Assembly: GCA_013327885.1 (NCBI GenBank)
Contig: JABUMY010000013.1
Location: 1 to 64,000 of the forward strand
Direction: 5' to 3'
DNA: 64,000 nucleotides
Origin: Flavisolibacter longurius
GTDB taxonomy: Bacteria > Bacteroidota > Bacteroidia > Chitinophagales > Chitinophagaceae
Below the pieces are notes generated by a model. It was not told where the DNA came from. It worked only from the letters and a program-made list of their open reading frames with translations, and searched no databases. A program made the translations under genes and the position numbers. This document shows, piece after piece, positions 2,743 through 56,988 of the stretch. Positions within the stretch are counted from its first letter, which is position 1; each line of letters opens with the position of its first letter.

Positions 2743-2806
2743 GGTGAGTGGTGAGTGGTGAGTGGTGAGTGGTGAGTTTGCGTGACATTCTTCGTCACCA
2801 GTCACT
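2743..2806 (+). repeat. Heptamer array GGTGAGT x5 with inverted partner
   Basis: Five perfect tandem copies of GGTGAGT fill 2743-2777, directly after the stop codon of the 71-aa gene. A short inverted partner (CGTCACCAGTCAC) follows at about 2794-2806. It is the most perfect member of the heptamer arrays seen across the window and uses the same unit as the sites at 33311 and 53891. Confidence 0.9.
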
Positions 2807-2854
2807 TTTCAGGAATATCTCTTGTGATAAATGCCCTTTGTAACAGTATTAGTA

Positions 2855-2880
2855 CTGGTGCCCTTTCCATACGGCACCAG
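2855..2880 (+). promoter_or_regulatory. Leader hairpin upstream of RRM gene
   Basis: Perfect 8-bp inverted repeat CTGGTGCC (2855-2862) and GGCACCAG (2873-2880) with a 10-base loop, about 50 bp before the RRM gene at 2929. No T-run follows, so it is more likely a leader structure or operator than a terminator. A role in cold-responsive control of the RRM gene is only a guess. Confidence 0.45.
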
Positions 2881-2928
2881 CGTTAGGTTCAATACCCTTA
2901 CCGGCAGTTGTTCTTACCAATAAAATAA

Positions 2929-3243
2929 ATGAATATGAATATTTACGTAGCAAATTTTGACACTGCCTGGAAGGATGAAGACCTGCGCCAGCTTTTTACG
3001 CCTTATGGAGAAGTTGCTTCCGCTTCGGTTGAAATGGATGTGTTTACGGAGAAATCAAGAGGTTTTGGTTATGTTGACATGCCCGACGAGTCCGCAGCGC
3101 AGGCTGCTATTGCCGCCCTGCACCAGAAAGATGTAAACGGCAGTGCACTGGATGTAAAGCAGGCCGAACCCAAGGTCATCAGCAAAGGATCGTACAAAGT
3201 AGGCAACGGTGGTGTAAATCCTTACCGTTTTCGTAAAAACTAA
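2929..3243 (+). CDS. RRM-domain RNA-binding protein
   Basis: Second single-RRM protein of the window, 104 residues: RNP2 IYVANF at residues 5-10, RNP1 RGFGYVDM near 44. Unlike the paralogue at 12-341 it ends in a short basic tail (residues 80-104) rather than a Gly repeat. The starts at 2929 and 2935 are both possible; the second matches the paralogue (MNIYV). It probably acts on RNA in the cytoplasm. A bidirectional terminator follows at 3365. Confidence 0.9.
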   Translation: MNMNIYVANFDTAWKDEDLRQLFTPYGEVASASVEMDVFTEKSRGFGYVDMPDESAAQAAIAALHQKDVNGSALDVKQAEPKVISKGSYKVGNGGVNPYRFRKN

Positions 3244-3364
3244 GACCGTTGCACATCAGTTGACGTGCTGGTTGACCTAATACCTTGTGTAACTTATTCT
3301 GACTGCCTTTACAAGCCTTTGGTTTGGATGACCAGCAATATGCCTGTTTCAGTAGAATAGATTA

Positions 3365-21251: not shown

Positions 21252-21252
21252 A

Positions 21253-37083: not shown

Positions 37084-37118
37084 AATTTACAGTTTACAGT
37101 TGAAAGTTTACAGTGGTA
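37084..37118 (-). repeat. Heptamer array AGTTTAC type
   Basis: AATTTAC, AGTTTAC, AGTTGAA, AGTTTAC, AGTGGTA in 7-bp register, in the 53-bp gap between the phosphatase stop and the hisS start. AAAACTG at 37119 could be the start of the inverted arm. Confidence 0.7.
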
Positions 37119-41953: not shown

Positions 41954-42041
41954 TGGGATAATGCGATCATGTGCCAATGCGATAATTGAAAAATCAGCAA
42001 AGCCATTATCAACTTATCGAATTATCAAACTATCAAATTAC
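41954..42041 (+). repeat. Octamer hairpin array between nuoA and nuoB
   Basis: 8-bp register: forward units TGGGATAA, TGCGATCA, TGTGCCAA, TGCGATAA directly after the nuoA stop; reverse units CAACTTAT, CGAATTAT, CAAACTAT, CAAATTAC ending 5 bp before nuoB. Shares its unit with the nuoD-nuoE array. Confidence 0.85.
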
Positions 42042-42046
42042 GTTTT

Positions 42047-42631: not shown

Positions 42632-42633
42632 AA

Positions 42634-42710
42634 GCTATGAGCTATGAGCTGCGAGCCCCGAGCATTTTGCTCTGCTCTCAGCTCACAGCTTAAGGCTAAA
42701 AGCTCAAAAA
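42634..42710 (+). repeat. Heptamer hairpin array between nuoB and nuoC
   Basis: GCTATGA x2, GCTGCGA, GCCCCGA, then (42676-42710) TCTCAGC, TCACAGC, TTAAGGC, TAAAAGC, TCAAAAA: forward arm starts two bases after the stop, reverse arm ends two bases before the nuoC ATG. Confidence 0.9.
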
Positions 42711-42712
42711 AT

Positions 42713-43282: not shown

Positions 43283-43341
43283 AAGGAAGTAAATGCCGAA
43301 AACAGGAAATCAATCCTAACAAAAAAGCTGACTAATTATTC

Positions 43342-44571
43342 ATGTCGACGACAGATAAAAATATAATTCTTCCGGAAGGAAACATTGGAACCGGAACCAC
43401 CCGCATCAACCTGGGACCAACACACCCGGCCACGCATGGGGTGTTTCAAAACATTTTGGAGCTGGATGGCGAGACGATCGTTTCTACCGAAATAACGATC
43501 GGTTATGTGCACAGGGCCATTGAAAAAATTGCCGAACGCAGGCCGCTTTACCAGATTACCCCACTCACCGACCGGTTAAACTATTGTTCGTCGCCCATCA
43601 ACAATATGGGTTGGCACATGACCTGCGAAAAGCTGCTTGGCGTCAAAACGCCTAAGCGGGTTGACTATCTCCGTGTTATTATCATGGAGCTGGCCCGGAT
43701 TGCCGATCACCTGATCTGCAACGGCGTAATGGGTGTGGACACGGGAGCTTTTACCGGGTTCCTGTACCTGATGCAATACCGCGAGCTTATCTACGAGATC
43801 TGGGAGCAGGTATGTGGTGCCCGCCTGACGACCAACATTGGCCGCATTGGTGGTTTCGAACGCAACTTCAACAACATTGCTTTTGAAAAGCTTGAGCGGT
43901 TTTTGGCTGAGTATCCCAAAGCCCTGAAAGAATTTGAAGAGTTGTTTTTACGCAACCGCATCTTTATGGATCGTACCATGGGTGCCGGTCCAATCAGTGG
44001 CGAAAGAGCCCTGAACTACGGTTTTACCGGGCCTAACCTCCGCGCCGCCGGTGTCGACTACGACGTGCGGGTGCATTCGCCTTACAGCAGTTACGAAGAT
44101 TTTGATTTTGTTATCCCAACCGGTACCACCGGGGATTGCTACGACCGCTTTTTGGTGCGCCAGCAGGAAATGTGGGAATCGCTGAAGATCATTGAGCAGG
44201 CTTACCGCAAAGTGCAGGAATTTAAAGGGGCGGAAGCAGAGGTGTTTCATGCCGATGTGCCGGAATACTACCTGCCGGAGAAAAAAGATGTGTACACCAA
44301 AATGGAGGCGCTCATCTATCACTTCAAAATTATTATGGGTGAAGTGAACATGCCTCCTGGTGAAGTGTACCACTCTGTAGAAGGTGGCAACGGCGAGCTG
44401 GGTTTTTATCTGATCAGTGATGGTGGCCGCAGCCCGTACCGTTTGCACCTGAGACGGCCTTGTTTTATTTATTACCAGGCATTTGAAGAACTGATCAAAG
44501 GCAGCATGTTAAGTGATGCCATTATTGTGATGTCATCGCTGAACCTGATCGCAGGGGAGATGGATGGGTAA
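43342..44571 (+). CDS. nuoD: NADH-quinone oxidoreductase subunit D
   Basis: 409 residues, usual size. Starts NLGPTHPATHGVFQNILELDGE after a short lead, typical of the 49-kDa subunit, with IGYVHRAIEKIAERRPLYQ and LTDRLNYCSSPINNMGW. The C-terminus ends MSSLNLIAGEMDG. Forms the quinone pocket with NuoB. Confidence 0.97.
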   Translation: MSTTDKNIILPEGNIGTGTTRINLGPTHPATHGVFQNILELDGETIVSTEITIGYVHRAIEKIAERRPLYQITPLTDRLNYCSSPINNMGWHMTCEKLLGVKTPKRVDYLRVIIMELARIADHLICNGVMGVDTGAFTGFLYLMQYRELIYEIWEQVCGARLTTNIGRIGGFERNFNNIAFEKLERFLAEYPKALKEFEELFLRNRIFMDRTMGAGPISGERALNYGFTGPNLRAAGVDYDVRVHSPYSSYEDFDFVIPTGTTGDCYDRFLVRQQEMWESLKIIEQAYRKVQEFKGAEAEVFHADVPEYYLPEKKDVYTKMEALIYHFKIIMGEVNMPPGEVYHSVEGGNGELGFYLISDGGRSPYRLHLRRPCFIYYQAFEELIKGSMLSDAIIVMSSLNLIAGEMDG

Positions 44572-44651
44572 TGTGACAATTAGCCTATGTGATAATTTGA
44601 TAATGGAACAAATTCATACTTATCAAATTATCGAATTATCAAATTATCGAA
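44572..44651 (+). repeat. Octamer hairpin array between nuoD and nuoE
   Basis: 8-bp register from the base after the nuoD stop: TGTGACAA, TTAGCCTA, TGTGATAA, TTTGATAA forward; TTATCAAA, TTATCGAA, TTATCAAA, TTATCGAA (44620-44651) reverse. nuoE ATG at 44659. Confidence 0.9.
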
Positions 44652-44658
44652 TTAGAAA

Positions 44659-45156
44659 ATGACGTTTTCAGAAGAAAAACTAAAAAAGGTTCACGAGATC
44701 GTTGCCCGCTACCCGGAGGGAAAGCAGAAAAGTGCGTTGATACCGGTGCTTCACCTGGCCCAGGAAGAGAACGGCGGCTGGCTGAGTGCCGAGGTGATGG
44801 ACTACGTAGCCAGCCTGTTGCAACTGACTTCTATTGAGGTTTACGAAGTAGCAACCTTTTACAGCATGTACAACCTAAAGCCGGTGGGTCGCTACCTTTT
44901 TGAAGTGTGCCAGACTGGTCCCTGTATGGTAAATGGCAGCGACGATATTATTGCTTACATCAAGCAAAAACTGGGAATTGCCGTAGGCGAAACAACAGCC
45001 GACGGCATGTTTACCTTAAAGACGGTGGAATGCCTGGGCGCCTGCGGGTATGCACCCATGATGCAGTTGGGTAAGTTTTACAAAGAGCACCTGACAAAAG
45101 AAAAAGTGGACCAGATCATTGAAGAATGCCGTCGCACAGCGGCTGCTCAAAACTGA
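44659..45156 (+). CDS. nuoE: NADH-quinone oxidoreductase subunit E
   Basis: 165 residues, thioredoxin-like [2Fe-2S] subunit. Cluster N1a ligands: Cys in CQTGPCM near 88-94 and CLGACGYAP near 124. Part of the NADH dehydrogenase module with NuoF. Its TGA stop overlaps the ATG of the following inserted gene by one base. Confidence 0.95.
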   Translation: MTFSEEKLKKVHEIVARYPEGKQKSALIPVLHLAQEENGGWLSAEVMDYVASLLQLTSIEVYEVATFYSMYNLKPVGRYLFEVCQTGPCMVNGSDDIIAYIKQKLGIAVGETTADGMFTLKTVECLGACGYAPMMQLGKFYKEHLTKEKVDQIIEECRRTAAAQN

Positions 45157-45593
45157 TGAAGAAGACCTTTTTCATACTAGCCTTTTTTGTAGCCACCCTG
45201 CAGGGATGGTCGCAAACTGCCGTGGAAAAAGCGGTGGTGGAAAGAACCTACCGGTTAAGCCAAGCTGTTTTTAGCACGAAAGACAGCCTGGCGGTGGAAG
45301 ACCTGTTTGCCAAAAAGCTTACCTATGGTCATTCCAGCGGCAAAATGGAAACAAGGGAAGAAGCCATAAAGGCCATTACCAAGAACCCATCGCGGTACGC
45401 CGATACGGCCATCAGCAATATCAGTGTGATCACTGATGGAGATGATGTGGCCATTGTGCGGCATCATTTTAAAGCATCGGAACAAAAAGCCGACGGCACT
45501 GCAGGTTCACTCAACCTTGGTATTATGCTGGTGTGGGTGAAAGAAGGCGGCAAGTGGCGCCTGATGGGCCGGCAGGCCTTTAAGCTGAACTAA
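45156..45593 (+). CDS. Exported NTF2-like (SnoaL/DUF4440-type) protein inside nuo operon
   Basis: 145 residues. Signal peptide MKKTFFILAFFVATLQGWSQ, then a nuclear transport factor 2-like cone fold (SLAVEDLFAKKLTYGHSSGKMETREEAIKAI, LVWVKEGGKWRLMGRQAFKLN). Such proteins bind small ligands or act as enzymes with unknown substrates. It is translationally coupled to nuoE (TGATG) although complex I has no such subunit, so it is either a hitchhiker or an accessory factor. Confidence 0.8.
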   Translation: MKKTFFILAFFVATLQGWSQTAVEKAVVERTYRLSQAVFSTKDSLAVEDLFAKKLTYGHSSGKMETREEAIKAITKNPSRYADTAISNISVITDGDDVAIVRHHFKASEQKADGTAGSLNLGIMLVWVKEGGKWRLMGRQAFKLN

Positions 45594-45650
45594 ATGCCGG
45601 AAGCTACCCGTAGCTTTCGTTCGTTATAAAAATTAAACCAAAACTACCTT

Positions 45651-46430
45651 ATGAGAACGAATCGTATTCGTCCCTTGAACTGTTCTTTGTCATTCGTAAT
45701 CGTTTGTATGCTGGCGACATCCTGTGTCAGCGTGAACCGCTTTTCCGATAATACTTATGCTGCCCGCGATAAAGACCGCAAGGCATTTGTACAAACCAAG
45801 GATGGCGTGATCACGGAAGCCGATGAAGTAAAGCTGCGCAGCCCGTTGATCGGCAGGTCAACCATCCAGTTGGATGGCGATGTGAAAATACCGGTAAAAG
45901 AAGTGCTGGCTTACCAAAACGGCACGGCCTATTACCGCAGCATACGGGGGCAGTTTGCGCCCCGTATCAACAAAGGCCTGATCAACATGTACAGGACCAT
46001 TGAAACGTATACCGACTTCTCCACGACGTCATCGGGGAGAAGCGGTACCCGAACCCGGCACCAGGTTATCTACTGGCTGCAGAAGGGCGACCAGGCGGAA
46101 ACCGTGATGCTAACGCCGGACGTAACGGAGCAATACGTAAAAGACTATGCGCCGGCTATGGAATACATGGACCTGTTCCGCCACAACCAGAAAAAGGTCA
46201 GAACCTGGTCGTTGATCAATACCGCTTCTGTTTTTGGCGGACTGGTACTGGCAGGTACACTGGGATCGAACAATACAACTGCCGGCAACACGGCAGTTAT
46301 CGCTGGTGGCGGATTGTTCTTTGGTGGGCTTGTCAATGGTTTTGTGAATAAAATACGGAAAGGAAAAAACTATACAAACCTGCAGTTGGCTATCGACGAA
46401 TACAACTACCAGGTAAAGCGGAAAAAGTAA
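45651..46430 (+). CDS. Putative lipoprotein inside nuo operon
   Basis: 259 residues, type II signal sequence with lipobox LATSC (Cys25); a mostly beta first half (to about 170), then a Gly-rich hydrophobic segment (about 188-227) and a basic C-terminus. No family recognised. It lies between the NTF2-like gene and nuoF on the same strand, with short gaps (57 and 37 bp). Confidence 0.75.
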   Translation: MRTNRIRPLNCSLSFVIVCMLATSCVSVNRFSDNTYAARDKDRKAFVQTKDGVITEADEVKLRSPLIGRSTIQLDGDVKIPVKEVLAYQNGTAYYRSIRGQFAPRINKGLINMYRTIETYTDFSTTSSGRSGTRTRHQVIYWLQKGDQAETVMLTPDVTEQYVKDYAPAMEYMDLFRHNQKKVRTWSLINTASVFGGLVLAGTLGSNNTTAGNTAVIAGGGLFFGGLVNGFVNKIRKGKNYTNLQLAIDEYNYQVKRKK

Positions 46431-46467
46431 CATTGAAAGAATTTACTGTCTGTAGACAGTTTGTACT

Positions 46468-47823
46468 ATGAGCAAAAAATTATTATTAGCGAACGCACAT
46501 ATCGAAAACATCCGTTTGTACGATGTTTATCGCAGGCATGGTGGTTATGCTGCCGTGGAAAAAGCCTTTAAAATGGCGCCTGCGGATATTGTGGAGGAAG
46601 TAAAAAAGAGTGGTCTTCGCGGTCGTGGTGGCGCCGGTTTCCCAACCGGTATGAAGTGGAGCTTTCTGGCCAAGCCTGAAGGCGTTCCCCGTTACCTCGT
46701 TTGCAATGCGGATGAATCCGAACCGGGAACCTTCAAGGATCGTTACCTGATGGAATTCATTCCGCACCTGCTGATCGAAGGCCTGATCATTTCTTCGTTT
46801 GCACTGGGCTCTAACCGCACCTATATCTACATCCGCGGTGAATATGCCTGGATCGTCGACATTTTGGAACAAGCGATTGCTGAAGCAAAAGCGGCCGGTT
46901 TCCTTGGAAAAAATATATTGAACACGGGCTTCGACTGCGAGATTTATGTCCAGCGTGGCGCCGGCGCTTATATCTGCGGTGAAGAAACAGCCCTGCTGGA
47001 ATCCCTCGAAGGCAAGCGTGGCAATCCCCGCATCAAGCCGCCCTTCCCGGCGGTAAAAGGTTTGTACGGTGCACCCACGGTGGTGAATAACGTAGAAACG
47101 CTGGCAGCCGTTGTACCCATCATCAACATTGGCGGCGAAGAGTATGCAAAGATTGGCGTAGGCAAATCCACCGGTACAAAACTCATTTCTGCCTGCGGCA
47201 ACATCAACAAGCCGGGCATTTATGAAATAGACATGACCATTTCTGTAGAAGAGTTTATCTACAGCGATGAGTATTGCGGCGGTATCCCTAAAGGAAAACG
47301 CCTGAAAGCCTGTATCCCCGGCGGATCGTCGGTGCCTATTCTGCCTGCCAACCTTTTGCTGAAAACAGCCAAAGGGGAGCAGCGGATGATGACCTATGAA
47401 AGCCTGGCCGATGGCGGTTTTGCCACCGGATCTATGATGGGTTCGGGTGGTTTTATTGTGCTGGACGAAGACCAGTGCGTGGTGCGTCACACCATGACCC
47501 TGGCCCGCTTTTATCGCCACGAAAGTTGCGGGCAGTGTTCGCCCTGCCGCGAAGGAACGGGTTGGATGGAGAAGATCCTGACCAACATCGAGAATGGCAA
47601 AGGCAAAATGAGCGACATCGACCTATTGTGGGACATTCAAAGCAAGATCGAAGGCAACACCATTTGCCCGCTGGGCGATGCGGCAGCCTGGCCGGTGGCA
47701 GCAGCCATCCGTCACTTCCGCGATGAATTTGAATGGCATGTGACCAACCCCGACGAAGCATTAACAAGAAACTTTGGACTGGCCCACTACGCCGATCCGA
47801 TAGAAGTGGCGGCAACGCCGTAA
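46468..47823 (+). CDS. nuoF: NADH-quinone oxidoreductase subunit F
   Basis: 451 residues. FMN/NADH site GRGGAGFPTGMKW (near 52) and GAGAYICGEETALLESLEG (near 165), and the N3 cluster CGQCSPCREGTGW near 354. Oxidises NADH and passes electrons to the Fe-S chain. Confidence 0.97.
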   Translation: MSKKLLLANAHIENIRLYDVYRRHGGYAAVEKAFKMAPADIVEEVKKSGLRGRGGAGFPTGMKWSFLAKPEGVPRYLVCNADESEPGTFKDRYLMEFIPHLLIEGLIISSFALGSNRTYIYIRGEYAWIVDILEQAIAEAKAAGFLGKNILNTGFDCEIYVQRGAGAYICGEETALLESLEGKRGNPRIKPPFPAVKGLYGAPTVVNNVETLAAVVPIINIGGEEYAKIGVGKSTGTKLISACGNINKPGIYEIDMTISVEEFIYSDEYCGGIPKGKRLKACIPGGSSVPILPANLLLKTAKGEQRMMTYESLADGGFATGSMMGSGGFIVLDEDQCVVRHTMTLARFYRHESCGQCSPCREGTGWMEKILTNIENGKGKMSDIDLLWDIQSKIEGNTICPLGDAAAWPVAAAIRHFRDEFEWHVTNPDEALTRNFGLAHYADPIEVAATP

Positions 47824-47914
47824 AGAAGCTGCAAGCTGTCAGCTTCTAGCTACAAGCCGAAGGGCAGTAGTAAAAGAGCTAGCAGCCAGAAGCTAATAGC
47901 TAAAAGCTTATTTC
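47824..47914 (+). repeat. Heptamer hairpin array between nuoF and nuoG
   Basis: 7-bp register right after the stop: AGAAGCT, GCAAGCT, GTCAGCT, TCTAGCT, ACAAGCC forward; AAAGAGC, TAGCAGC, CAGAAGC, TAATAGC, TAAAAGC reverse (47873-47907). nuoG ATG at 47918. Confidence 0.9.
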
Positions 47915-47917
47915 ACT

Positions 47918-49087
47918 ATGGCTGAAGAAAAGAAACTGTTTAAGGTTACGATCGATAACATTACCACCGAGGTGGAGCCGGGAACGACCATCCTGATGGC
48001 GGCCCGAAAAATTGGTGGCGACATCGTACCGCCAACCATGTGTTATTACAGCAAGCTGCAGAACACAGGTGGCTACTGCCGCACTTGCCTGGTCCGGGTG
48101 GCTGCCGGCTCTACGGCCGATCCGCGACCAATGCCAAAGCTGGTAGCAAGCTGCCGTACGGCGGTGATGGACGGTATGATTGTAGAGAACATCACCAACC
48201 CGGCCGTACTGGAAGCCCGCAAAGGTGTGGTGGAGTTCCTGCTGCTGAACCACCCTCTGGACTGTCCCGTTTGCGACCAGGCCGGCGAATGCGACCTGCA
48301 GGACCTGAGCTACGAGCACGGTACCGAAGGCACCCGCTATGAATTCAAGCGCAGAACATTTGAGCGTATCGATATCGGCCCGAACATCCAGTTGCACATG
48401 ACCCGTTGCATTCTTTGCTACCGTTGTGTGCACACGGCTAACCAGGTTGCCGGCAACCGCGACCATGGTGTGCTGGACCGCGGCGATCATGCACAAATAG
48501 CAACCTATATTCAGAAATCACTGGAAAGCCCGATGATCGGCAATGTCATTGACGTTTGTCCCGTAGGTGCCCTTACCGACAGAACCTTCCGGTTTAAAAA
48601 CCGGGTATGGTTCACCAAGCCGGTAGATGCTCACCGCGATTGTCCGCATTGCACCGGCAAGGTGCGCCTTTGGATGCGCGGCGACGATGTGCTGCGGGTT
48701 ACAGCCCGCAAAGACCAGTGGGGCGAAGTGGAAGAATGGATCTGTAACGAATGCCGCTTTGAAAAGAAAAAAGTAAGCGATTGGGTCATTGAAGGACCAA
48801 CCAAATTAGACAGGCATTCGGTTATCAATGCCGGTCATTATGTGAACCTGGTGACACCAAAAGAAACCCTGAAAGAAGTGATGGGTGGCCGCGATCCGAA
48901 ACGGTTGCTGGATATCAAAACCATTTCGGATGTAAACCAGGTGGATCTTGATGTGCTTCCCGGGCCGGCAACCAGCGCAACGTTCAACGGCAATCCCGAT
49001 TCGGTAGGTACCAATGTTACCGATGTGAAGAATGGAATGGGGAGGAACCTGGCCGGAACGGACAGCACTAACCCGAACACACCCTAA
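47918..49087 (+). CDS. nuoG: NADH-quinone oxidoreductase subunit G, short form
   Basis: 389 residues, less than half of the E. coli protein. It keeps the [2Fe-2S] ferredoxin part (CYYSKLQNTGGYCRTC), the N4-type region (HPLDCPVCDQAGECDLQDL), RCILCYRC and VCPVGALTDRTFRF. The molybdopterin-like C-terminal domain is missing. The last 40 residues are Asn/Thr/Gly-rich. Short NuoG forms are known in Bacteroidetes (general knowledge), so this is probably functional. Confidence 0.93.
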   Translation: MAEEKKLFKVTIDNITTEVEPGTTILMAARKIGGDIVPPTMCYYSKLQNTGGYCRTCLVRVAAGSTADPRPMPKLVASCRTAVMDGMIVENITNPAVLEARKGVVEFLLLNHPLDCPVCDQAGECDLQDLSYEHGTEGTRYEFKRRTFERIDIGPNIQLHMTRCILCYRCVHTANQVAGNRDHGVLDRGDHAQIATYIQKSLESPMIGNVIDVCPVGALTDRTFRFKNRVWFTKPVDAHRDCPHCTGKVRLWMRGDDVLRVTARKDQWGEVEEWICNECRFEKKKVSDWVIEGPTKLDRHSVINAGHYVNLVTPKETLKEVMGGRDPKRLLDIKTISDVNQVDLDVLPGPATSATFNGNPDSVGTNVTDVKNGMGRNLAGTDSTNPNTP

Positions 49088-49147
49088 CGAACAGCAGAAC
49101 AGACGAGCAAGGAACAGATGAATGGTGAAGGACGGGGAAGGTGACGA

Positions 49148-49200
49148 ATAGAATTTCATAACGTACAAGTGTGCGACGCAACAAAAGTTGAATAGTAGCA
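49148..49200 (+). repeat. Solo core copy of the TIR element family
   Basis: The stretch with ATAGAATT, GTACAAGTGTGCGACGCAAC and AAAAG, followed by AATAGTAGCA, matches the cores of TIR element copies 1 and 2, but no TIRs flank it. It lies between nuoG and nuoH. Confidence 0.7.
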
Positions 49201-49220
49201 CCCGAGTTGACAAACAAAAA

Positions 49221-49276
49221 AAAGCTTCAAGTGAAAAGCAATGTGCTTGCCGCTTGCCGCTAACAGCTAATAGCTA
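49221..49276 (+). repeat. Heptamer array upstream of nuoH
   Basis: AAAGCTT, CAAGTGA, AAAGCAA, TGTGCTT, GCCGCTT, GCCGCTA, ACAGCTA, ATAGCTA in 7-bp register; the last base is the A of the nuoH ATG. A less regular GAACAG-type array (about 49088-49140) follows the nuoG stop. Confidence 0.75.
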
Positions 49277-50322
49277 TGTTACTACAAATTGATTGGTTCC
49301 TTATTCTGGAAAAATTTATCCTGATCGCCGTAATTGTAACTACGGCGCTGGTGGTAGCGATGTACAGCACCTATGCGGAACGGAAGGTTGCTGCGTTTTT
49401 GCAGGACAGGATTGGTCCCGATCGTGCCGGTCCGTTCGGCTTGCTGCAGCCAATGGCCGATGGTGTCAAGCTGTTCATGAAAGAAGAGATCATCCCGCTG
49501 ACATCTTCCAAATCACTTTTTATCATGGGCCCCTTGCTGGCAATGATAACAGCCACCATGACAAGTGCCGTCATTCCCTGGGGATGGACCATTGACGTTG
49601 CCGGCCGGCAGGTGCCGCTGCAGGTTGCCGATATCAACATTGGTATCCTTTACATTTTTGGCGTGGTGAGCCTGGGTGTGTATGGCATCATGATCGGTGG
49701 CTGGGCCTCCAACAATAAATTTTCACTCCTCGCCGCTATCCGTGGCGCTTCGCAAATGATCTCTTACGAACTGGCCATGGGCCTTTCCCTGATCGCCGTG
49801 CTGATGCTGGTAGGCGATCTGCGGATGAGCACCATTGTAGGTCACCAGGTAGAAAACGGCTGGAATATTATTTACCAGCCCCTGGGTTTCCTGATCTTTT
49901 TGATCTGTTCGCTGGCAGAGTGTAACCGTACGCCGTTTGACCTGCCGGAAGCCGAGAATGAATTGAACTTTGGTTACCACCAGGAATACTCTTCCATGAA
50001 GCTGGGTTTTTACTTGTTTGCCGAATACATCAACATGTTTATCAGCGGTGTTATCATGGCCACACTTTATTTTGGCGGGTACGATATTCCGTTTATCGAT
50101 GAAGTAGGCATGTGGGGTAACCAGTGGTGGGTTGGATTGATTGGCTTTGCCGTACTGATGGCGAAAGCCTTCTTTTTCATCTTCCTGTTCATGTGGATCC
50201 GCTGGACCATTCCGCGTTTCCGTTTCGACCAGTTGATGAACCTGGGCTGGAAAGGGCTTTTGCCCCTGGCGCTGGGCAATATGCTGCTAACGGCAGTGAT
50301 CGTTTTACTGCTGAATAAATAA
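49276..50322 (+). CDS. nuoH: NADH-quinone oxidoreductase subunit H
   Basis: 348 residues, eight membrane helices, ND1-like. Hallmarks: YAERKVAAFLQDRIGPDRAG near 33-52, and CNRTPFDLPEAENELNFGYHQEYS near 216-239. Links the quinone cavity to the proton channels. Confidence 0.96.
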   Translation: MLLQIDWFLILEKFILIAVIVTTALVVAMYSTYAERKVAAFLQDRIGPDRAGPFGLLQPMADGVKLFMKEEIIPLTSSKSLFIMGPLLAMITATMTSAVIPWGWTIDVAGRQVPLQVADINIGILYIFGVVSLGVYGIMIGGWASNNKFSLLAAIRGASQMISYELAMGLSLIAVLMLVGDLRMSTIVGHQVENGWNIIYQPLGFLIFLICSLAECNRTPFDLPEAENELNFGYHQEYSSMKLGFYLFAEYINMFISGVIMATLYFGGYDIPFIDEVGMWGNQWWVGLIGFAVLMAKAFFFIFLFMWIRWTIPRFRFDQLMNLGWKGLLPLALGNMLLTAVIVLLLNK

Positions 50323-50393
50323 ATGATTTTTAAACAACGGATGGAGCAGAACGGCTAATTTTGCGGCCGTTAAAAGAAGAAGAGGAAAAGACG

Positions 50394-50942
50394 ATGCAAG
50401 CATTAACAAACAGAAAAACAGTGGTGGAGCGCAAGCCAATGACCCTGGCTGAAAAGCTGTACCTGCCGGCGATCTTCAAAGGCATGGGTATCACGTTCTC
50501 GCACTTATTTAAAAAAGCGCCAACCATCAGGTACCCGGAAGAAAAGCGTCCTTTTGCCGATGTTTTCCGTGGATTGCATATTCTGAACCGGGACGAAGAA
50601 GGCCGCGAACGCTGTACGGCTTGCGGTCTTTGTGCGGTAGCCTGCCCGGCTGAAGCCATTACCATGGAGGCGGCAGAGCGCCAGACAGGGGAAGAAAACC
50701 TGTACCGCGAAGAAAAATACGCTGCCAAGTACGAGATCAACATGCTGCGTTGCATTTTCTGCGGCCTGTGCGAAGAGGCTTGTCCGAAGGATGCCATCTA
50801 CCTGACAAAAACAGTTGCGCCGGCAAACTACGGCCGCAAAGGTTTTATTTATAAAAAAGAAGATTTACTGATTCCAAACCCGGTAACGGACCCCGAAGGT
50901 TACAAAGAAGCCAAGGGTACGTTCAACACAAAACCGGAATAA
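50394..50942 (+). CDS. nuoI: NADH-quinone oxidoreductase subunit I
   Basis: 182 residues with two 4Fe-4S motifs: CTACGLCAVACP near 80 and CIFCGLCEEACPKDAIYL near 120, clusters N6a/N6b. I start at the ATG of MQALTNRKTVVE; the frame is open 11 codons further to a TTG at 50361, which is unlikely. Confidence 0.95.
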   Translation: MQALTNRKTVVERKPMTLAEKLYLPAIFKGMGITFSHLFKKAPTIRYPEEKRPFADVFRGLHILNRDEEGRERCTACGLCAVACPAEAITMEAAERQTGEENLYREEKYAAKYEINMLRCIFCGLCEEACPKDAIYLTKTVAPANYGRKGFIYKKEDLLIPNPVTDPEGYKEAKGTFNTKPE

Positions 50943-50957
50943 AATAGAACCTACTGC

Positions 50958-51539
50958 ATGGGTATTACACAAATACTATTCTGGGCGCTGACGGCAGTGG
51001 CCCTTTTTAGCGCAATGCTGGTGGTAACCAGTAAAAATCCGGTGTACAGTGTACTGTGGCTGATTGTTACCTTCTTTACCATCTCGGGCCACTACCTGTT
51101 GCTGAATGCGCAGTTCCTGGCCATTGTGAACATTATTGTTTATGCCGGCGCCATTATGGTGCTCTTCCTGTTTGTGATCATGCTGATGAACCTGAGCAAG
51201 GAAACCGAACCGCAAAAGAACAAATGGCTGCGGTTGGCCGGGGCCGTTGCTGGAGGCAGTTTGCTGCTGGTGCTCGTGGCGGCGCTGCGTACCACCGAAA
51301 CAAGAATGACGGAACTGGGTACCGGCGAGATTGGCCTGATTCAAAACCTGGGCAAGGTGTTGTTTACCGAATACGTGGTTCCGTTTGAGATCGCCAGCAT
51401 CCTGTTTTTAAGTGCCATGATCGGTGCGGTAGTGATTGGCAAAAAAGAAAAGCCGGTGATTGAGGATGAGATCCTGGAAGCGGATGTGATACAATCAGAG
51501 ATTCACGAAAACGAAACCGCCGGGTACCTGAAGCATTAA
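50958..51539 (+). CDS. nuoJ: NADH-quinone oxidoreductase subunit J
   Basis: 193 residues, five membrane helices, ND6-like ([44 protein letters not shown]). It has an unusual charged C-terminal tail of about 25 residues ([14 protein letters not shown]). Confidence 0.95.
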
Positions 51540-51555
51540 CCGTTACTATATTATT

Positions 51556-51885
51556 ATGGACATCAAGTATTACATTTTTCTTTCCCTCGCCTTGTTTGTC
51601 ATTGGCATTGTAGGGGTGCTTACCCGGCGCAATGCCATCATCATATTTATGTGTGTCGAGTTGATGCTGAACTCCGTTAACCTGCTGTTGGTGGCGTTCT
51701 CTAAAATGCATCACCTGGCAGGCGCCGCTACCAATCCAACCGCCGGAACCGACGGGCAGTTGTTTGTATTCTTTATCATGGTAGTAGCCGCTGCGGAAGT
51801 GAGTGTGGGCCTGGCCATTATCGTTATGCTCTTCCGCAATACACATTCTGTGGACGTGAACTTTTTAAACAGACTAAAACACTAA
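51556..51885 (+). CDS. nuoK: NADH-quinone oxidoreductase subunit K
   Basis: 109 residues, three membrane helices, ND4L-like, with the conserved Glu in [14 protein letters not shown] and [17 protein letters not shown]. Heptamer array follows its stop. Confidence 0.96.
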
Positions 51886-51889
51886 GAAA

Positions 51890-51966
51890 GCTGCGAGCCA
51901 TGAGCTGTGAGCCACGAGCCAGAAGGTTCAGAAGCTCAAGGCTCATAGCTCAAAGCTCATAGCTTA
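51890..51966 (+). repeat. Heptamer hairpin array between nuoK and nuoL
   Basis: 7-bp register: GCTGCGA, GCCATGA, GCTGTGA, GCCACGA, GCCAGAA forward; AAGCTCA, AGGCTCA, TAGCTCA, AAGCTCA, TAGCTTA reverse (51932-51966), ending 4 bp before nuoL. Shares its unit with the nuoB-nuoC array. Confidence 0.9.
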
Positions 51967-51970
51967 TAAC

Positions 51971-53890
51971 ATGAAGAACTTAATTTTACTCATTCCGCTG
52001 CTGCCGTTCCTGGGCTTTTTGATCAATGGATTGGGACGGAAACATTTATCCAAAGGGGCCATTGGTACCATTGGCAGTGGTGTGATCCTGGGTTCCTTTG
52101 CCATTAGTTTGTATGCTTTCCTTAACCTGGATGCGTTCACCGGCGAACGGGCCATTTCGTCCAGTGCCCGCATTTTGGGAAACCCCGTGATCCGTTATTT
52201 TGATTTTATCCGCGTAGGAAACTTCCGCGTTCCGTTTGCGTTCCAGATCGACCAGCTCTCAACGCTGTTTCTCCTGATCATTACCGGCGTTGGTTTCCTG
52301 ATCCATGTTTATTCGACGGCTTATATGCACGAAGAAAAACGGGAACATTTTGGTCGCTATTTCGCCTACCTCAATTTGTTTGTGTTTTCGATGCTGCTGC
52401 TGGTGATGGGCGCCAACTTCGTGATTATGTTTATTGGTTGGGAAGGGGTTGGTCTTTGTTCTTACCTGCTGATCGGCTATTGGTTTAAAAATGTAGATTA
52501 TACCAAAGCAGCCAAAAAAGCGTTTGTCATGAACCGCATTGGTGACCTTGGCTTTTTGCTGGCCGTGTTCTGGCTTATTGCCAAACTGGGCACGGTAAGC
52601 TATGCAGATGTTTTTACAACGGCTGCACTTGACCGTTTGTCCTCCACCGATTTGATTGGCATTACCCTGCTCCTGTTTTTGGGAGCTACCGGTAAAAGTG
52701 CACAGATACCGCTGTACACCTGGCTGCCCGATGCGATGGCTGGTCCCACGCCGGTATCCGCACTGATCCACGCCGCTACGATGGTTACCGCCGGTATTTA
52801 TATGATTGCCCGCAGCAACGTGCTATTTACGGCAGCGCCGGCAACGCTTTCCGTCATTGCCATTATTGGTGCGGCAACTGCGCTGTTGGCTGCCACCATT
52901 GCCATCCGGCAAAACGACATTAAAAAAGTGCTGGCGTATTCTACCGTCAGCCAGTTGGGATACATGTTCCTGGCACTGGGAACCGGCGCTTACGTGGCGG
53001 CTGTTTTCCATGTCATGACGCATGCCTTCTTCAAAGCCCTGTTGTTCCTTGGTTCCGGTTCGGTGATCCACGCCGTGAGTGGCAACCAGGACATTCGCAC
53101 TATGGGTGGCCTGCGCAAAAAACTGCCGGTGACCTATGCCACTTTCTTTGTGGGCTGTTTGGCCATTGCCGGTATTGCGCCGCTGAGCGGTTTCTTTTCC
53201 AAAGATGCCATCCTGTTAAGCGCTTTCGATAGCAATAAGATCTTGTACGCAGTAGGATTGTTTACCGCTGCACTGACCGCATTTTATATGTTCCGCCTCC
53301 TGTTCATCACCTTTGGCGGTTCGTTCCGCGGCACCGAAGAGCAAAAGCATCACATTCACGAAAGTCCTGCGGCCATGACCATCCCACTAATCGTTTTGGC
53401 GGTGCTGTCCATTATCGGTGGCTGGATCGGCATTCCTGCCCTGTTCATGGAAGGTGGCGACAAGCTTGCTGAATATTTAGGCCCTGTGGTGAAATCAAAA
53501 GCGATCCATGTGGATCATGCTACCGAGTGGATACTTGTGGCACTAACAACGGTGATAGCACTGGTAGCCATTGCCATTGCGTATACCCGTTACCGTAACT
53601 ACCGCGACGAAAAAGAAACCGGCTTTACCAGGCTGCTGGAGAACAAATGGTATGTGGATGAATTGTACGACACGGTTATTGTGCGTCCGCTGAACAGCTT
53701 TGGTGGTTTTGTGCACCGCTTTATCGAAAAAGGTACCATCGATGCGATGGTTAACGGTGTGGGCCGGCTGGTAAATTATGGTGGTCGCCAATTGCGCTGG
53801 CTGCAAAGCGGGCAGGTTGGTAACTACGTGCTGCTGATGGTCATTAGCATGGTGCTTTTGTTCCTGCTGCAATTCTTTTTGAGAAAATAA
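51971..53890 (+). CDS. nuoL: NADH-quinone oxidoreductase subunit L
   Basis: 639 residues, about sixteen membrane helices, antiporter-like proton pump. Typical strings: MNRIGDLGFLLAVF, PLYTWLPDAMAGPTPVSALIHAATMVTAG and AYSTVSQLGYMFLALG. The C-terminus carries the lateral-helix region. Confidence 0.96.
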   Translation: MKNLILLIPLLPFLGFLINGLGRKHLSKGAIGTIGSGVILGSFAISLYAFLNLDAFTGERAISSSARILGNPVIRYFDFIRVGNFRVPFAFQIDQLSTLFLLIITGVGFLIHVYSTAYMHEEKREHFGRYFAYLNLFVFSMLLLVMGANFVIMFIGWEGVGLCSYLLIGYWFKNVDYTKAAKKAFVMNRIGDLGFLLAVFWLIAKLGTVSYADVFTTAALDRLSSTDLIGITLLLFLGATGKSAQIPLYTWLPDAMAGPTPVSALIHAATMVTAGIYMIARSNVLFTAAPATLSVIAIIGAATALLAATIAIRQNDIKKVLAYSTVSQLGYMFLALGTGAYVAAVFHVMTHAFFKALLFLGSGSVIHAVSGNQDIRTMGGLRKKLPVTYATFFVGCLAIAGIAPLSGFFSKDAILLSAFDSNKILYAVGLFTAALTAFYMFRLLFITFGGSFRGTEEQKHHIHESPAAMTIPLIVLAVLSIIGGWIGIPALFMEGGDKLAEYLGPVVKSKAIHVDHATEWILVALTTVIALVAIAIAYTRYRNYRDEKETGFTRLLENKWYVDELYDTVIVRPLNSFGGFVHRFIEKGTIDAMVNGVGRLVNYGGRQLRWLQSGQVGNYVLLMVISMVLLFLLQFFLRK

Positions 53891-53960
53891 AATGGTGAGT
53901 AGTGAATGGTTAGTGGTGAGTAGGTCTTTCAAAACTCACCATTCACCACTCACCACTCAC
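53891..53960 (+). repeat. Heptamer hairpin array between nuoL and nuoM
   Basis: 7-bp register from the base after the nuoL stop: AATGGTG, AGTAGTG, AATGGTT, AGTGGTG forward; AACTCAC, CATTCAC, CACTCAC x2 reverse. Same unit family as 2743 and 33311. nuoM ATG at 53974. Confidence 0.9.
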
Positions 53961-53973
53961 ACCAATTGTTGAT

Positions 53974-55458
53974 ATGATTGTCTTATCCCTTTTTCTGGTT
54001 CCCTTGCTTGGTGGGTTGATTTCCTTTTTTATTAAGGAGGAAAAAGCCGTTCGCACCTGGGCATTTGTTGTTTCGCTGGTGACGATGGCGCTGGCCGTAG
54101 CCGGAACCCGTTTTATTACATCAGAAGATGCCCTGCAGTTTTCCGCACCCTGGATGGGCGCACTGAATTCCACGTTTTCGCTGAAGCTGGATGGCATGGC
54201 CAAGCTGCTTTGCCTGCTGACAGGAATTGCTTACCCCGTGATCTTTTTTTCTACCTGGAATACGGCCTACCGCAAGCCGCATAACTTTTTTGGACTGATG
54301 CTGCTGGCACAAGCCGGCCTGATGGGGGTGTTTACGTCCATGGATGCGCTCTTGTTTTATTTCTTCTGGGAACTGGCGCTGATACCGGTTTATTTTCTTT
54401 GCTCCGGCTGGGGTGGCGAAAAAAGAATCCAGGTTACGTTCAAGTTCTTTATTTATACGTTTACTGCTTCGGTGCTGATGCTCATCGGGCTTCTTTATCT
54501 CTATTTTCAAACGCCTGACCGTTCGTTTTCCATCGAATCGTTTTACGCACTGGCTAGCCAGGGCAACTGGAATCAAACCCTTGCTTTCTGGTTGCTGTTT
54601 GCCGCATTCGCGGTGAAGATGCCCGTATTTCCGTTTCATACCTGGCAGCCCGATACCTACGAGCAGTCGCCCAACGCGGTGACCATGGTACTGAGTGGCC
54701 TGATGGTAAAAATGGGTGTGTACGGCGTGATCCGCTGGGTGCTTCCGGTTACCGCTTCCGCCGCTTATTCCTGGGGTGATGTGGTTTCCACCATGGCCGT
54801 TATCGGTATCATCTATGCATCGATCCTCGCCATTCAGCAAAACGACTTAAAGCGACTGATTGCTTATTCCTCCATTGCACACATCGGCATCATGGCGCTG
54901 GCCATTTTTGCCGAAACACAAATGGCCCTGCAAGGTGTGATGATGCAGATGTTTAACCACGGTGTCAACATCATTGGCTTGTGGATAGTGGTGGAAATGA
55001 TCGAGCGGCAATTTGGTACCCGCAAGCTTTCGGAATTAGGAGGTATTGCCGCCAAAGCGCCGGCACTGGCAACGTTGCTGGTGATCATGGCCTTTGCCAA
55101 TATTTCGCTGCCGCTGACCAATGCTTTTGTGGGAGAGTTCCTGATGTTTGCCGGCATCTTCACGTCAACGTACAGCAAATACAATTTTGTGTTTACCACG
55201 CTGGCCTTGCTAAGTATTATCCTGGCAGCAGTGTATACGCTTACTATGGTGCAGAAAGTTTTCTTTGGACCGGTGAACGACCGCACCGCCAACGCCGTGG
55301 ATATCCGGCTGAATGAAAAACTGGCCCTGGGTGCGCTGGTGGTGATCATCTTCCTGTTTGGCGTTTACCCGCAGCCGCTGCTGAACATTACCAGCGAATA
55401 CACGGAAACCATCATTACAAATTCAACAAGGGTGTTAACTCAAACCTTGAACAAATAA
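53974..55458 (+). CDS. nuoM: NADH-quinone oxidoreductase subunit M
   Basis: 494 residues, ND4-like proton pump with about fourteen helices. Strings FPFHTWQPDTYEQSPNAVTMVLSGLMVKMGVYG and AYSSIAHIGIMALAIFAE are diagnostic. It is one base away from nuoN. Confidence 0.96.
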   Translation: MIVLSLFLVPLLGGLISFFIKEEKAVRTWAFVVSLVTMALAVAGTRFITSEDALQFSAPWMGALNSTFSLKLDGMAKLLCLLTGIAYPVIFFSTWNTAYRKPHNFFGLMLLAQAGLMGVFTSMDALLFYFFWELALIPVYFLCSGWGGEKRIQVTFKFFIYTFTASVLMLIGLLYLYFQTPDRSFSIESFYALASQGNWNQTLAFWLLFAAFAVKMPVFPFHTWQPDTYEQSPNAVTMVLSGLMVKMGVYGVIRWVLPVTASAAYSWGDVVSTMAVIGIIYASILAIQQNDLKRLIAYSSIAHIGIMALAIFAETQMALQGVMMQMFNHGVNIIGLWIVVEMIERQFGTRKLSELGGIAAKAPALATLLVIMAFANISLPLTNAFVGEFLMFAGIFTSTYSKYNFVFTTLALLSIILAAVYTLTMVQKVFFGPVNDRTANAVDIRLNEKLALGALVVIIFLFGVYPQPLLNITSEYTETIITNSTRVLTQTLNK

Positions 55459-55459
55459 T

Positions 55460-56827
55460 ATGAACGCATTACTTCTTTCAGCTGTTTCGGGTGTGATTAT
55501 GATGTTCAGCGGTTTTGCGCTGAGCCGCGGCGCTGTTCGAACACTTGCCCAGGTACTCCTTGCCCTCGTTGTTGTGTCGGCCGCGCTGGAGTTAAGAGGC
55601 GTTAGTTTTTTTGACATCGATACAAAAGGCATGCTGGCCTTCGACAATTTTGCTTTGTTGTTTTCCCTGATCGCAGCGCTTTGTACCCTTGTGTTTACCC
55701 TGCTTTCAGGAAAAGACATGGAAAGAGTGGGAACGAGCTATTCCGACTATTTTGCCCTGATCTTTTTTATTCTCGCCGGTATCGTGATCTCGTCTTCGTT
55801 CCAGTCCCTGCTGCTCCTGTTTTTGGGTATCGAGATCATTTCCATCCCGCTTTACATTTTGGCCGGCACCGATAAGCTGAACCTGAAAAGCAACGAAGCC
55901 AGTTTGAAATACTTCCTGATGGGATCTTTCTCGACCGGCTTGCTGCTGATGGGCATTGCGTTGGTGTATGGTGCAACAGGCACCTTCAGCACGGTGGACA
56001 TGCAGGTCTCTACCGAATCGGTTCCTGTACTGTTTCTGGCTGGCTTGCTCCTGCTGATGTTTGCCATCTCGTTCAAGGCATCGGCTGCACCGTTCCATTT
56101 CTGGACGCCGGACGTATACGATGGTTCGCCAACGGTATTTACTTCGTTCATGGCAACCGTCGTAAAAGCGGCGGTTTTCATTGCGTTTATGCGACTTTTT
56201 TCCGCCGCCTTTGGCAATATCAGCGGCGAATGGAAACTGGTTGCCGCCATCATTGTGGCTACGACTTTGTTTATCGGAAACATAACGGCTGTTTTCCAGC
56301 AGAGCGTAAAGCGTATGCTCGCTTATTCTTCCATTGCGCAGGCAGGCTTTATGATGCTGGCCATCTATACACTGACCACGGAAGCCCGTGAAGGTCTTAT
56401 CCTGTATGGAACGGCCTACTCGCTGGCTACGATCGGCATCTTTGCCGTACTGGCCAAAATGCCCGATTATACGTTTGATGGCTTCAACGGCTTTGCAAAA
56501 CAGCAGCCACTGATCGCTGCCACGCTGGTGATTTTTTTGCTGTCACTCGCAGGCATTCCGCTAACGGCAGGTTTTCTTTCCAAGTTTTATATGCTGAAGG
56601 CAACAGTAGCGGTAGGCAATATCTGGCTGGCCATATTTGCCGTGCTGATGGCAGCCGTGTCGGTTTATTATTATTTCCGCCTGATACAAGCCATGTATTT
56701 TAAAGATGGCACTGCAACGATCCGTAATGTTGGCACCGGCTTTAAAGTAACACTCATAGCCGTAGCGGCATTCACCATTATCCTTGGTGTGTATCCGAAC
56801 CTACTCCTGTACTGGCTTTATTTTTAG
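55460..56827 (+). CDS. nuoN: NADH-quinone oxidoreductase subunit N
   Basis: 455 residues, ND2-like proton pump with about fourteen helices (ASLKYFLMGSFSTGLLLMGIALVYG, FHFWTPDVYDGSP, AYSSIAQAGFMMLAIYTL). Last gene of the operon, before a heptamer array and a strong terminator. Confidence 0.95.
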   Translation: MNALLLSAVSGVIMMFSGFALSRGAVRTLAQVLLALVVVSAALELRGVSFFDIDTKGMLAFDNFALLFSLIAALCTLVFTLLSGKDMERVGTSYSDYFALIFFILAGIVISSSFQSLLLLFLGIEIISIPLYILAGTDKLNLKSNEASLKYFLMGSFSTGLLLMGIALVYGATGTFSTVDMQVSTESVPVLFLAGLLLLMFAISFKASAAPFHFWTPDVYDGSPTVFTSFMATVVKAAVFIAFMRLFSAAFGNISGEWKLVAAIIVATTLFIGNITAVFQQSVKRMLAYSSIAQAGFMMLAIYTLTTEAREGLILYGTAYSLATIGIFAVLAKMPDYTFDGFNGFAKQQPLIAATLVIFLLSLAGIPLTAGFLSKFYMLKATVAVGNIWLAIFAVLMAAVSVYYYFRLIQAMYFKDGTATIRNVGTGFKVTLIAVAAFTIILGVYPNLLLYWLYF

Positions 56828-56988
56828 GAATAGCGAGTAGCAAGTAGTAAATAGCAAGTAGCCTTTCATTGCAAAACATTATATTCTTACAAACCTCCTG
56901 AGCAACCAGGAGGTTTTTTTTATGGAAAGAAATGGTGGCGTGAAATGGCTACTGGCTACTCGCCGCTTACTACTCGCATCTTACTTAT
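56828..56988 (+). repeat. Heptamer arms flanking the nuo terminator
   Basis: Forward units GAATAGC, GAGTAGC, AAGTAGT, AAATAGC, AAGTAGC (56828-56862) from the base after the nuoN stop; reverse units GGCTACT x2, CGCCGCT, TACTACT, CGCATCT, TACTTAT (56947-56988) up to 13 bp before the permease start. A terminator lies between the arms. Confidence 0.85.
56892..56921 (+). terminator. nuo operon terminator
   Basis: AACCTCCTG-AGCAAC-CAGGAGGTT stem (56892-56915) then six more T's; a strong rho-independent terminator 64 bp after nuoN. Confidence 0.9.

Follow-up and report, generated by a model that had tools for sequence, protein, structure and literature searches.

Intergenic arrays of degenerate 7- and 8-bp units in Flavisolibacter longurius and other Chitinophagaceae

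Degenerate heptanucleotides in tandem have been described in a few bacterial settings, among them the P6b stem-loop of the Nostoc trnL (tRNA-Leu UAA) intron, which consists of units of Class I (TDNGATT) or Class II (NNTGAGT), varies in length by whole repeat units, and has had its classes replaced independently in different lineages (PMC4476775). TAACTGA arrays lie near start codons in Beggiatoaceae, cyanobacteria and five Bacteroidetes; in Flexibacter litoralis one such array directly follows a stop codon in reverse orientation, with other heptamer arrays nearby (PMC4679880). Among other dispersed repeats, repetitive extragenic palindromes (REPs) adjoin gene 3' ends and favour convergent and unidirectional gaps (PMC3733652), and BrickBuilt of Porphyromonas gingivalis is an intergenic miniature inverted-repeat transposable element (MITE) with an internal minisatellite (PMC4596501). 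Heptamer-derived families are noted in the searched text of a survey of bacterial satellites, which does not mention Bacteroidetes (PMC6749651), and the relevant passages of a DNA-structure survey of prokaryotic genomes report inverted repeats as over-represented and describe no arrays of the present kind (PMC4060949). The present work concerns a 64,000-nt stretch of Flavisolibacter longurius (contig JABUMY010000013.1; hereafter the window), in which many gaps between genes, including those of the nuo operon, carry arrays of degenerate 7- or 8-bp units that are often paired as inverted arms. No description of this arrangement in Chitinophagaceae was found in the open-licence literature, subscription papers lying outside the search.

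The arrays are real, widespread and consistent in architecture. The reading tentatively preferred here is that they form the arms of dispersed, non-coding intergenic palindromes of a REP/MITE-like foldback type, single arrays being arms that have outlasted their partners; on the same tentative footing, each arm is a short satellite of degenerate 7- or 8-bp units and not one conserved terminal repeat.

Periodicity, placement and unit families

The window is C4:1–64000 of the genome labelled G000 (5.75 Mb, 52 contigs), and together with C11:1–200000 and C22:1–200000 it makes up an own-genome set of 464 kb. In the intergenic DNA of this set, match rates at lags of 7, 14 and 21 exceed those of dinucleotide shuffles with z = 12.7, 13.2 and 11.6, respectively. 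Smaller peaks stand at lags 3, 6, 15 and 24, where coding-type signal is present as well; there is no intergenic peak at lags 9, 10, 11, 13 or 20, and the coding DNA of the 464 kb shows no 7-nt peaks. When an array was defined by a four-unit score of at least 0.60, 76 of 332 gaps had period-7 arrays (2.8 after shuffling) and 17 had period-8 arrays (1.4 after shuffling), while other periods gave 20 vs 11.9 (period 6), 46 vs 35.4 (period 5) and 2 vs 0.2 (period 9). A slightly different detector, applied to the 318 gaps no shorter than 30 nt, found arrays in 81; roughly one intergenic gap in four in this genome thus holds arrays of 7- or 8-bp units. The detector misses arrays of fewer than four units and highly degenerate ones, and genes were called by a simple script based on open reading frames and codon usage, which misplaces some starts. 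The excess extends to other Chitinophagaceae, where 891 gaps from about 100 loci, scored at a cut of 0.65, gave 159 period-7 arrays (4.0 shuffled) and 55 period-8 arrays (1.3 shuffled), with a weaker excess at periods 6 (30 vs 12.3), 9 (5 vs 0.3) and 4 (196 vs 150). In 100 kb of E. coli K-12 only 1 of 54 gaps has an array (0.1 shuffled), and together with the shuffles this rules out chance or AT-richness as the cause. As intergenic 7-nt tandem units in register and above chance, the arrays resemble the long heptanucleotide repeats known as short tandemly repeated repetitive sequences or long simple sequence repeats.

Of the 50 window gaps that are 30 nt or longer, 18 contain a detected array; most of the arrays are listed by Tandem Repeats Finder (TRF) and confirmed by direct reading of the gaps, and two of the 18 (39694, 58274) are AT-rich and may be chance.

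The placement of arrays is far from random. In tandem gaps 118 of 415 arrays start 0–2 nt after the upstream stop codon, about fourfold the 29.2 expected by random placement, and 65 have their end no more than 2 nt from the called start (27.6 expected). Over the whole set, gaps with an array number 263 of the 1033 tandem ones, 26 of the 96 convergent ones and 12 of the 80 divergent ones (own genome: 53 of 197, 20 of 57 and 8 of 64); the arrays are thus, like REPs, dispersed and palindromic, near gene 3' ends and depleted in divergent gaps. Where two arrays of the same period share a gap (101 gaps), 61 pairs are inverted, 2 are direct and 38 are neither. On the gene strand 91 of 107 stop-side arrays are purine-rich compared with 23 of 88 start-side arrays, and single arrays keep this polarity (24 of 30 stop-side, 8 of 27 start-side). 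Growth of arrays out of coding sequence was considered and rejected, as the periodicity sets in downstream of the stop codon, the stop itself showing only a slight increase over control.

Units fall into recurrent families, with cores in the own genome of nGCAATn, nnnAGCT, TGGTGAG, TYTCACG and TCGCTAC; among 105 heptamer arrays, the families recurring within a genome are GCAATNN (22), AGCTNNN (16) and TGGTGAG (15). Unit variation is concentrated in fixed columns: of 358 arrays in all, 319 are more uneven across columns than permuted arrays. Octamer arrays tend to be AT-rich and heptamer arrays richer in GC (mean G+C 0.284 vs 0.371), as seen in 27 of the 39 genomes that have both. Heptamer profiles are alike in 69 of 141 pairs from the same gap, in 694 of 6069 pairs from other gaps of the same genome, in 3381 of 57693 pairs between genomes and in 112 of 5986 column-permuted controls; for octamers the values are 20 of 38, 70 of 206 and 926 of 5751 for same gap, same genome and between genomes. 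This likeness within as compared with between gaps indicates that units are chosen chiefly site by site and that some are shared more widely. Neighbouring units within an array are more alike than distant ones, a result that the array boundaries as drawn favour.

Most of what the initial annotation described in the window is borne out by these counts: at least 15 gaps with arrays, strict 7- or 8-bp register by the autocorrelation it proposed, both arms at about half of the array gaps, units that match within a site and differ between sites, and a forward array after a stop with its reverse complement before the next start. The last layout describes tandem gaps, and has to be widened to take in the arrays of convergent and divergent gaps. 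Its remark that no such arrangement was known from Bacteroidota needs correcting, in that TAACTGA heptamer arrays are known in a few Bacteroidetes (PMC4679880).

The composite element CE1 and exchange of units between relatives

The GAGACGN and TCTCACG arrays proved to be the ends of a dispersed composite element, here called CE1. A search for the octamer CAACTTGTGAACTTGTGAAC allowing up to three mismatches found 58 places (none with the reversed control), and about ten composite copies were present among the first 30 octamer loci read (3 kb each; 22 distinct segments); the CE1 octamer is also found as plain hairpins elsewhere. CE1 runs from a GTGAGGACG-like end through CGTGARA repeats, a 60-nt core (near AAACCGTAGCGTCATT..TATTTTCAA..ATAGCTTGTATTGGCTGTTC) and AACTTGTG repeats to TYTCACG repeats. 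Nine copies align over 96 columns with a mean column identity of 74%. Of nine left-hand stop codons, seven read GTGA directly before the array. Twelve copies examined in G000 lie in convergent (7), tandem (3) and divergent (1) gaps, with one unplaced. The window holds one copy without the last arm at 27600–27766 on the plus strand: a degenerate GAGACGN array forms its 5' part (27600–27690; TRF and reading) directly after a gene stop reading ACGTGA, the core match follows at 27657–27741 (sequence-only model R1, E 1.1e-14), and an octamer array of AACTTGTG units occupies 27722–27766, the 3' TCTCACG arm not being seen in this copy. A phage or plasmid origin was rejected, as the window copy has no match in phage and plasmid collections.

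With 150 candidates scored per genome, so that copy numbers are lower bounds, the sequence-only model finds at least 28 matches in G000 (at least 21 near-full) and at least 26 (at least 24 near-full) in G006, the nearest genome compared (~74–94% identity around the compared gaps). Elsewhere, a single near-full match, a weak one, occurs in G009, and what the model finds besides in G003, G009 and G007 covers mainly arrays alone; the other 13 of 18 genus genomes gave none among the candidates scored. Of seven G006 copies checked, five share flanks with a G000 copy and two match none of the G000 copies compared. The window's divergent gap at 33230–33410 has a GGTGAGT hairpin where G006 has a CE1 copy. 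Multiple copies with a conserved interior and inverted termini, as in a MITE, are shown for CE1 only; it is demonstrably a copied element, which favours a dispersed-repeat origin.

When the 50 window gaps were compared with G006, arrays were present in both genomes at 14, in the window only at 3, in G006 only at 1 and in neither at 21, with no ortholog for 11. Differences amount to 70 of 563 positions in array cores, 62 of 298 in free columns, 286 of 1408 in loops and flanks of array gaps and 453 of 2804 in gaps without arrays; because alignment across repeats inflates core identity, the conservation of cores is weak evidence of constraint. Indels of 7- or 8-nt multiples make up 9 of 26 within arrays and 6 of 43 outside (p = 0.07).

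Congeners repeat the same array layout with other units at the same nuo junctions. Between nuoL and nuoM the units are GGTGAGT in the window and G006, TTTTGAC in G003 and G010, and AACGTGA in Paracnuella (L022), while G007, G014, G013 and others have no array there; between nuoB and nuoC they are AGCT types in the window, G006, G013 and G015, TTTTCAAA octamers in G009 and TTTTGAC in G016. Many of the 80 nuo loci are compact operons without arrays. In two Sediminibacterium relatives the nuoB–nuoC gap holds a CCATGGA array (L076) or, in its place, a plain hairpin, CATGGTG..CACCATG (L068), possibly a hairpin-to-array transition.

In wider sampling, an exact 20-mer of TTTTGAC units is carried by 28 of the 194 family genomes, and by 21 of the 92 genera sampled (2 genomes with the reversed control), and a 21-mer of the same units occurs in 1 of 148 phylum genomes, from another family, where the surrounding 16 kb has arrays in 5 of 8 gaps. 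A broader family sample has arrays in 70 of 574 gaps (12.3 shuffled), very unevenly among genomes; in other stretches they occupy 4 of 52 gaps at family level (0.6 shuffled), 1 of 51 at order level (0.8), 4 of 19 at class level (0) and 6 of 22 at phylum level (0), the last including the five around the 21-mer match.

CE1 is not the only dispersed element associated with arrays. Arrays of nnATTGA stand at one end of a dispersed non-coding element of ~400 bp (C11:9449, C11:30324, C22:8437, C22:186295, C22:197580). Eight genes in G000 match Y1_Tnp (IS200-like, or REP-associated tyrosine transposase, RAYT), at C11:190003, C11:327791, C11:354652, C22:335084, C33:283881, C44:113780, C44:157687 and C44:176762; a detected heptamer array lies beside only one of the eight, and three array-rich genomes (L064, L069, L061) have no Y1_Tnp match, so that mobilisation of the arrays by RAYT is not supported. 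Several of the Y1_Tnp flanks carry GC-rich palindromes (e.g., CCCCTCCGGGG and CACCGGTTG.ACCGGTGG) that appear to form a distinct population of classical REPs. A further dispersed intergenic repeat containing GCACAAGTGTGCGACGCAAC (window 21003–21252 and 28877–29156; C11:160349, C11:195607) shares up to about 220 bp between gaps, and its motif also occurs in the 49088–49275 gap and in relatives' nuo gaps. GC-rich inverted repeats of the type CCTAAGTTCCCCC..GGGGGACAGGGGG are present in the window at 28877–29156 and in the nuoA–nuoB gap of G011, and such repeats fill whole stop-to-start gaps in relatives.

Origin of the arrays and pairing of their arms

The preferred origin as dispersed palindromes with satellite arms would proceed in four steps. 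An inverted-repeat element would be copied into a gap by ectopic copying, the candidate agents being a trans-acting transposase and template switching from one dispersed copy to another; its arms would then grow, shrink and homogenise by slippage of units in steps of 7–8 nt, so that they keep their consensus and lose unit-by-unit identity; an element of a different family may later replace it in the same gap, which would account for the different units that congeners carry at one junction; and selection would remove elements from genes and promoters, leaving the observed pile-up next to stop codons. In its favour are the occurrence of arrays on both strands throughout the genome and the family, the predominance of inverted pairs and their fixed polarity, the REP-like placement, the recurrence of unit families within a genome, the copying of CE1, the ~400-bp element that ends in nnATTGA arrays and the lack of an RNA-pairing signature. 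Several observations weigh against this account. Loop sequences of the commonest hairpins (GGTGAGT, AGCTNNN, GCAATNN) are not alike from site to site, and for these hairpins the copying of entire elements is therefore not demonstrated; the Y1_Tnp/RAYT search described above yielded no mobilising gene; neither a target-site duplication nor a clean empty-site set has been established; and the indel comparison supports slippage only weakly. A bolder version, which we regard as doubtful, is that the arrays represent a class of bacterial foldback-type mobile DNA whose ends are renewable 7/8-nt satellites, served by an enzyme with a 7–8 nt step that tolerates almost any unit, and re-founded repeatedly with new units across Chitinophagaceae and some other Bacteroidota, even inside nuo.

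The rival that survives best, though distinctly less probable than dispersed palindromes, is purely local mutation, in which an array arises by slippage, its inverted copy is made when the nascent strand snaps back and switches template, and nothing is mobile; units would recur between sites because some sequences slip more easily. It accommodates the far greater agreement of arrays within a gap than between gaps, the likeness of neighbouring units (with the bias from array boundaries noted above), the recurrence of TTTTGAC in many genera and in another family, and the report that among the long simple repeats of bacteria those with heptanucleotide units are the commonest, slippage having been proposed for them (Mrazek 2007, as given in PMC4679880). 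A snap-back copy should, however, match its template unit by unit, and best-register pairing of the arms in 61 hairpins scores 15.08 compared with 14.39 when units are permuted (p = 0.15), so that arms as direct copies of each other are not supported. The concentration of variation in fixed columns and the existence of CE1 as a copied element also speak against it. The proposal in the initial annotation that arms co-vary within a site accordingly applies to their consensus and not to their individual units, and its suggestion of local copying or inversion in place of spread suits most families, where units are locally determined, but not the GAGACGN/TCTCACG arrays that end CE1.

A third explanation, which we consider improbable, is that the arrays form functional RNA hairpins between cistrons, reaching from stop to next start and tuning the translation, processing or stability of their neighbours. 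Their position flush with stops and starts and between the genes of the nuo operon suits such a role, as does a report that REPs within 15 nt of a stop lower translation (PMC12306157). The transcripts can fold, as had been predicted: six of eight window segments have folding z scores of −7.4 to −2.0 (five of the eight below −2.2), the other two giving −1.5 and +0.5 (+0.52). Such low energies are expected from inverted arrays. A further test lies in the mismatches, since a maintained transcript hairpin should have arm mismatches of the G-U rather than the A-C type on the gene strand. In 91 array hairpins of tandem gaps the isolated arm mismatches are 28 G-U and 31 A-C, with no G-U excess, whereas 62 non-array intergenic hairpins have 17 G-U and 4 A-C (p = 0.007 within this set; p = 0.010 for the difference between array and non-array hairpins). 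The non-array hairpins are a modest positive control because their contrast is limited to isolated mismatches: it is gone when all mismatches are counted (32 vs 27), and a stricter cut leaves 7 vs 3 isolated ones. Compensatory or wobble-tolerant pairing of the kind found in structured RNA is therefore not seen in the array hairpins, and unit-by-unit covariation of the arms is likewise lacking; arrays also occur in divergent gaps, and many relatives have short nuo gaps without arrays. A scan of the window against Rfam at gathering thresholds returned tRNA-Pro alone, no array matching a family. Selection for an RNA hairpin is not supported by these results, nor is the idea that the transcript hairpin is the point of the arrangement; RNA hairpins do form, probably as a by-product, and the arrays look like dispersed, self-renewing repeat DNA rather than a set of RNA switches.

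Slightly less probable still is that the units are sites, 7–8 nt apart, to which sequence-specific DNA- or RNA-binding proteins attach, with a distinct factor for each unit family: the conserved core and free columns common to the sites of a family (nGCAATn, nnnAGCT), the lower divergence of cores than of loops and flanks between G000 and G006 (a difference inflated by alignment across repeats) and the precedent of cold-shock proteins for heptamer binding (PMC4679880) are in keeping with it, but a single genome would need about nine or more factors, congeners differ in the units that they carry at one junction, and the arrays lie mostly at gene 3' ends.

The rarity of SbcD, of the hairpin nuclease SbcCD, is a possible background that would let hairpins persist. 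SbcD exceeds the NCBIfam cut-off in 25 of 194 Chitinophagaceae genomes compared with 51 of 148 in the phylum sample, and in 1 of 34 genomes behind the nuo loci (a count made apart from L022 and L037). Arrays occupy 16 of 198 gaps in 25 genomes with SbcD and 54 of 376 in 35 genomes without it (6.0 and 6.3 shuffled; p = 0.40 by genome), and TTTTGAC arrays occur in 1 of 25 and 27 of 169 genomes, respectively (p = 0.14); G262 carries both arrays and SbcD.

Arrays of the window and comparison with described repeats

In the window, the nuo operon comprises the genes at 41543–56827, with Pfam or NCBIfam matches for B, C, D, E, F, G, H, I, L, M and N, and nuoA, nuoJ and nuoK named by operon position. 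NuoH (49276–50322) is 87% identical to that of a Flavisolibacter metagenome-assembled genome, 84% to that of Paracnuella aquatica and 82% to that of Flaviaesturariibacter flavus; a second NuoH-like gene in G000 (C48:31423–32421) is 46% identical to it. Eight array gaps lie within the operon or just 3' of it, all with arrays on the plus strand. An octamer arm of TGNGATAA follows the nuoA stop (41954–41987; reading) and one of ATTATCAA precedes the nuoB start (42005–42040; TRF and reading); AGCTNNN arms follow the nuoB stop (42632–42665; reading) and precede nuoC (42672–42710; fold z −6.61). After the nuoD stop there is an octamer arm of GATAATTT (44572–44607; reading), and before nuoE one of TTATCAAA/TTATCGAA (44617–44660; TRF and reading). 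AGCTNNN units recur after the nuoF stop (47827–47855; reading), before nuoG (47876–47914; TRF and reading) and, as a single array, before nuoH (49245–49275; TRF and reading). A GAGCYNN arm after the nuoK stop (51889–51919; TRF and reading) faces an AGCTCAN arm before nuoL (51933–51968; TRF and reading; fold z −7.36), and a GGTGAGT arm after the nuoL stop (53893–53921; TRF and reading) faces an ACTCACC arm before nuoM (53934–53960; TRF and reading; fold z −5.38). Beyond the nuoN stop a GAGTAGC arm (56831–56862) and its inverted GCTACTC partner (56943–56985; both TRF and reading) enclose a terminator-like stem with a T run (56892–56921; reading), a stem also present in the loop at C11:41213. Because this separate stem sits in the loop, the arms at 56828–57001 are not the terminator, and intrinsic terminators were rejected for the arms in general, those of the window having no T runs and lying inside the nuo operon.

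Outside the operon, a single array of five perfect GGTGAGT units (2743–2777, plus strand; TRF and reading) starts 2 nt after a TAG stop, and the matching gap of G006 has no GGTGAGT array. The divergent gap that holds CE1 in G006 has a GGTGAGT arm at 33310–33340 (TRF and reading) and its inverted ACTCACC partner at 33362–33400 (reading), both on the plus strand. Three arrays are on the minus strand: a weak CGTTTCA-type array of uncertain extent (29888–29965, in the gap 29883–29970), a single GCAATNN array (31939–31985; gene strand TTGCGGA/TTGCCTA; TRF and reading) and a TTTACAG array beside hisS (37086–37114; TRF and reading).

A large share of the intergenic DNA of Chitinophagaceae, a common bacterial family, appears to be a turnover zone of repeats with a strict 7/8-nt step and not idle spacer, and the arrays occupy operons as basic as nuo. 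If replication alone sets the step, the family would be the best natural record so far of slippage at 7–8 nt; if an enzyme sets it, that enzyme would be a new one. In practice, gene-end calls, terminator prediction and RNA-structure screens are misled by such hairpins; the simple wobble test used here separates them from hairpins that behave like selected RNA.

Each of the described systems shares some of these features. Like TAACTGA repeats, the arrays are intergenic heptamers near starts; the TAACTGA system, however, has a single unit, mostly in short direct repeats, and is not described there as genome-wide inverted pairs of many units. Like REPs and bacterial interspersed mosaic elements, of which CGTC-tagged families are reported in Bacteroidetes, they are dispersed palindromes at gene 3' ends, but REPs are 20–40 bp long with a defined stem and a GTAG/CGTC tag, whereas the arms here are 7/8-bp satellites, and unlike in REP/RAYT systems the RAYT genes of G000 are flanked by palindromes other than the arrays. 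BrickBuilt is likewise a Bacteroidota intergenic element that carries tandem repeats, but as one family with a 23-bp unit in its middle, while here the inverted arms themselves are the arrays. Internally repetitive terminal inverted repeats are also found in foldback transposons such as Galileo (PMC3573991), which is eukaryotic, kilobase-sized and has a known transposase relative, none being known for these arrays. In architecture the arrays are closest to the P6b stem of Nostoc trnL. That stem is one site in a self-splicing intron with two classes of unit; the arrays described here differ in having no RNA-pairing signature, and they extend over hundreds of intergenic sites, with many unit families and octamers as well as heptamers.

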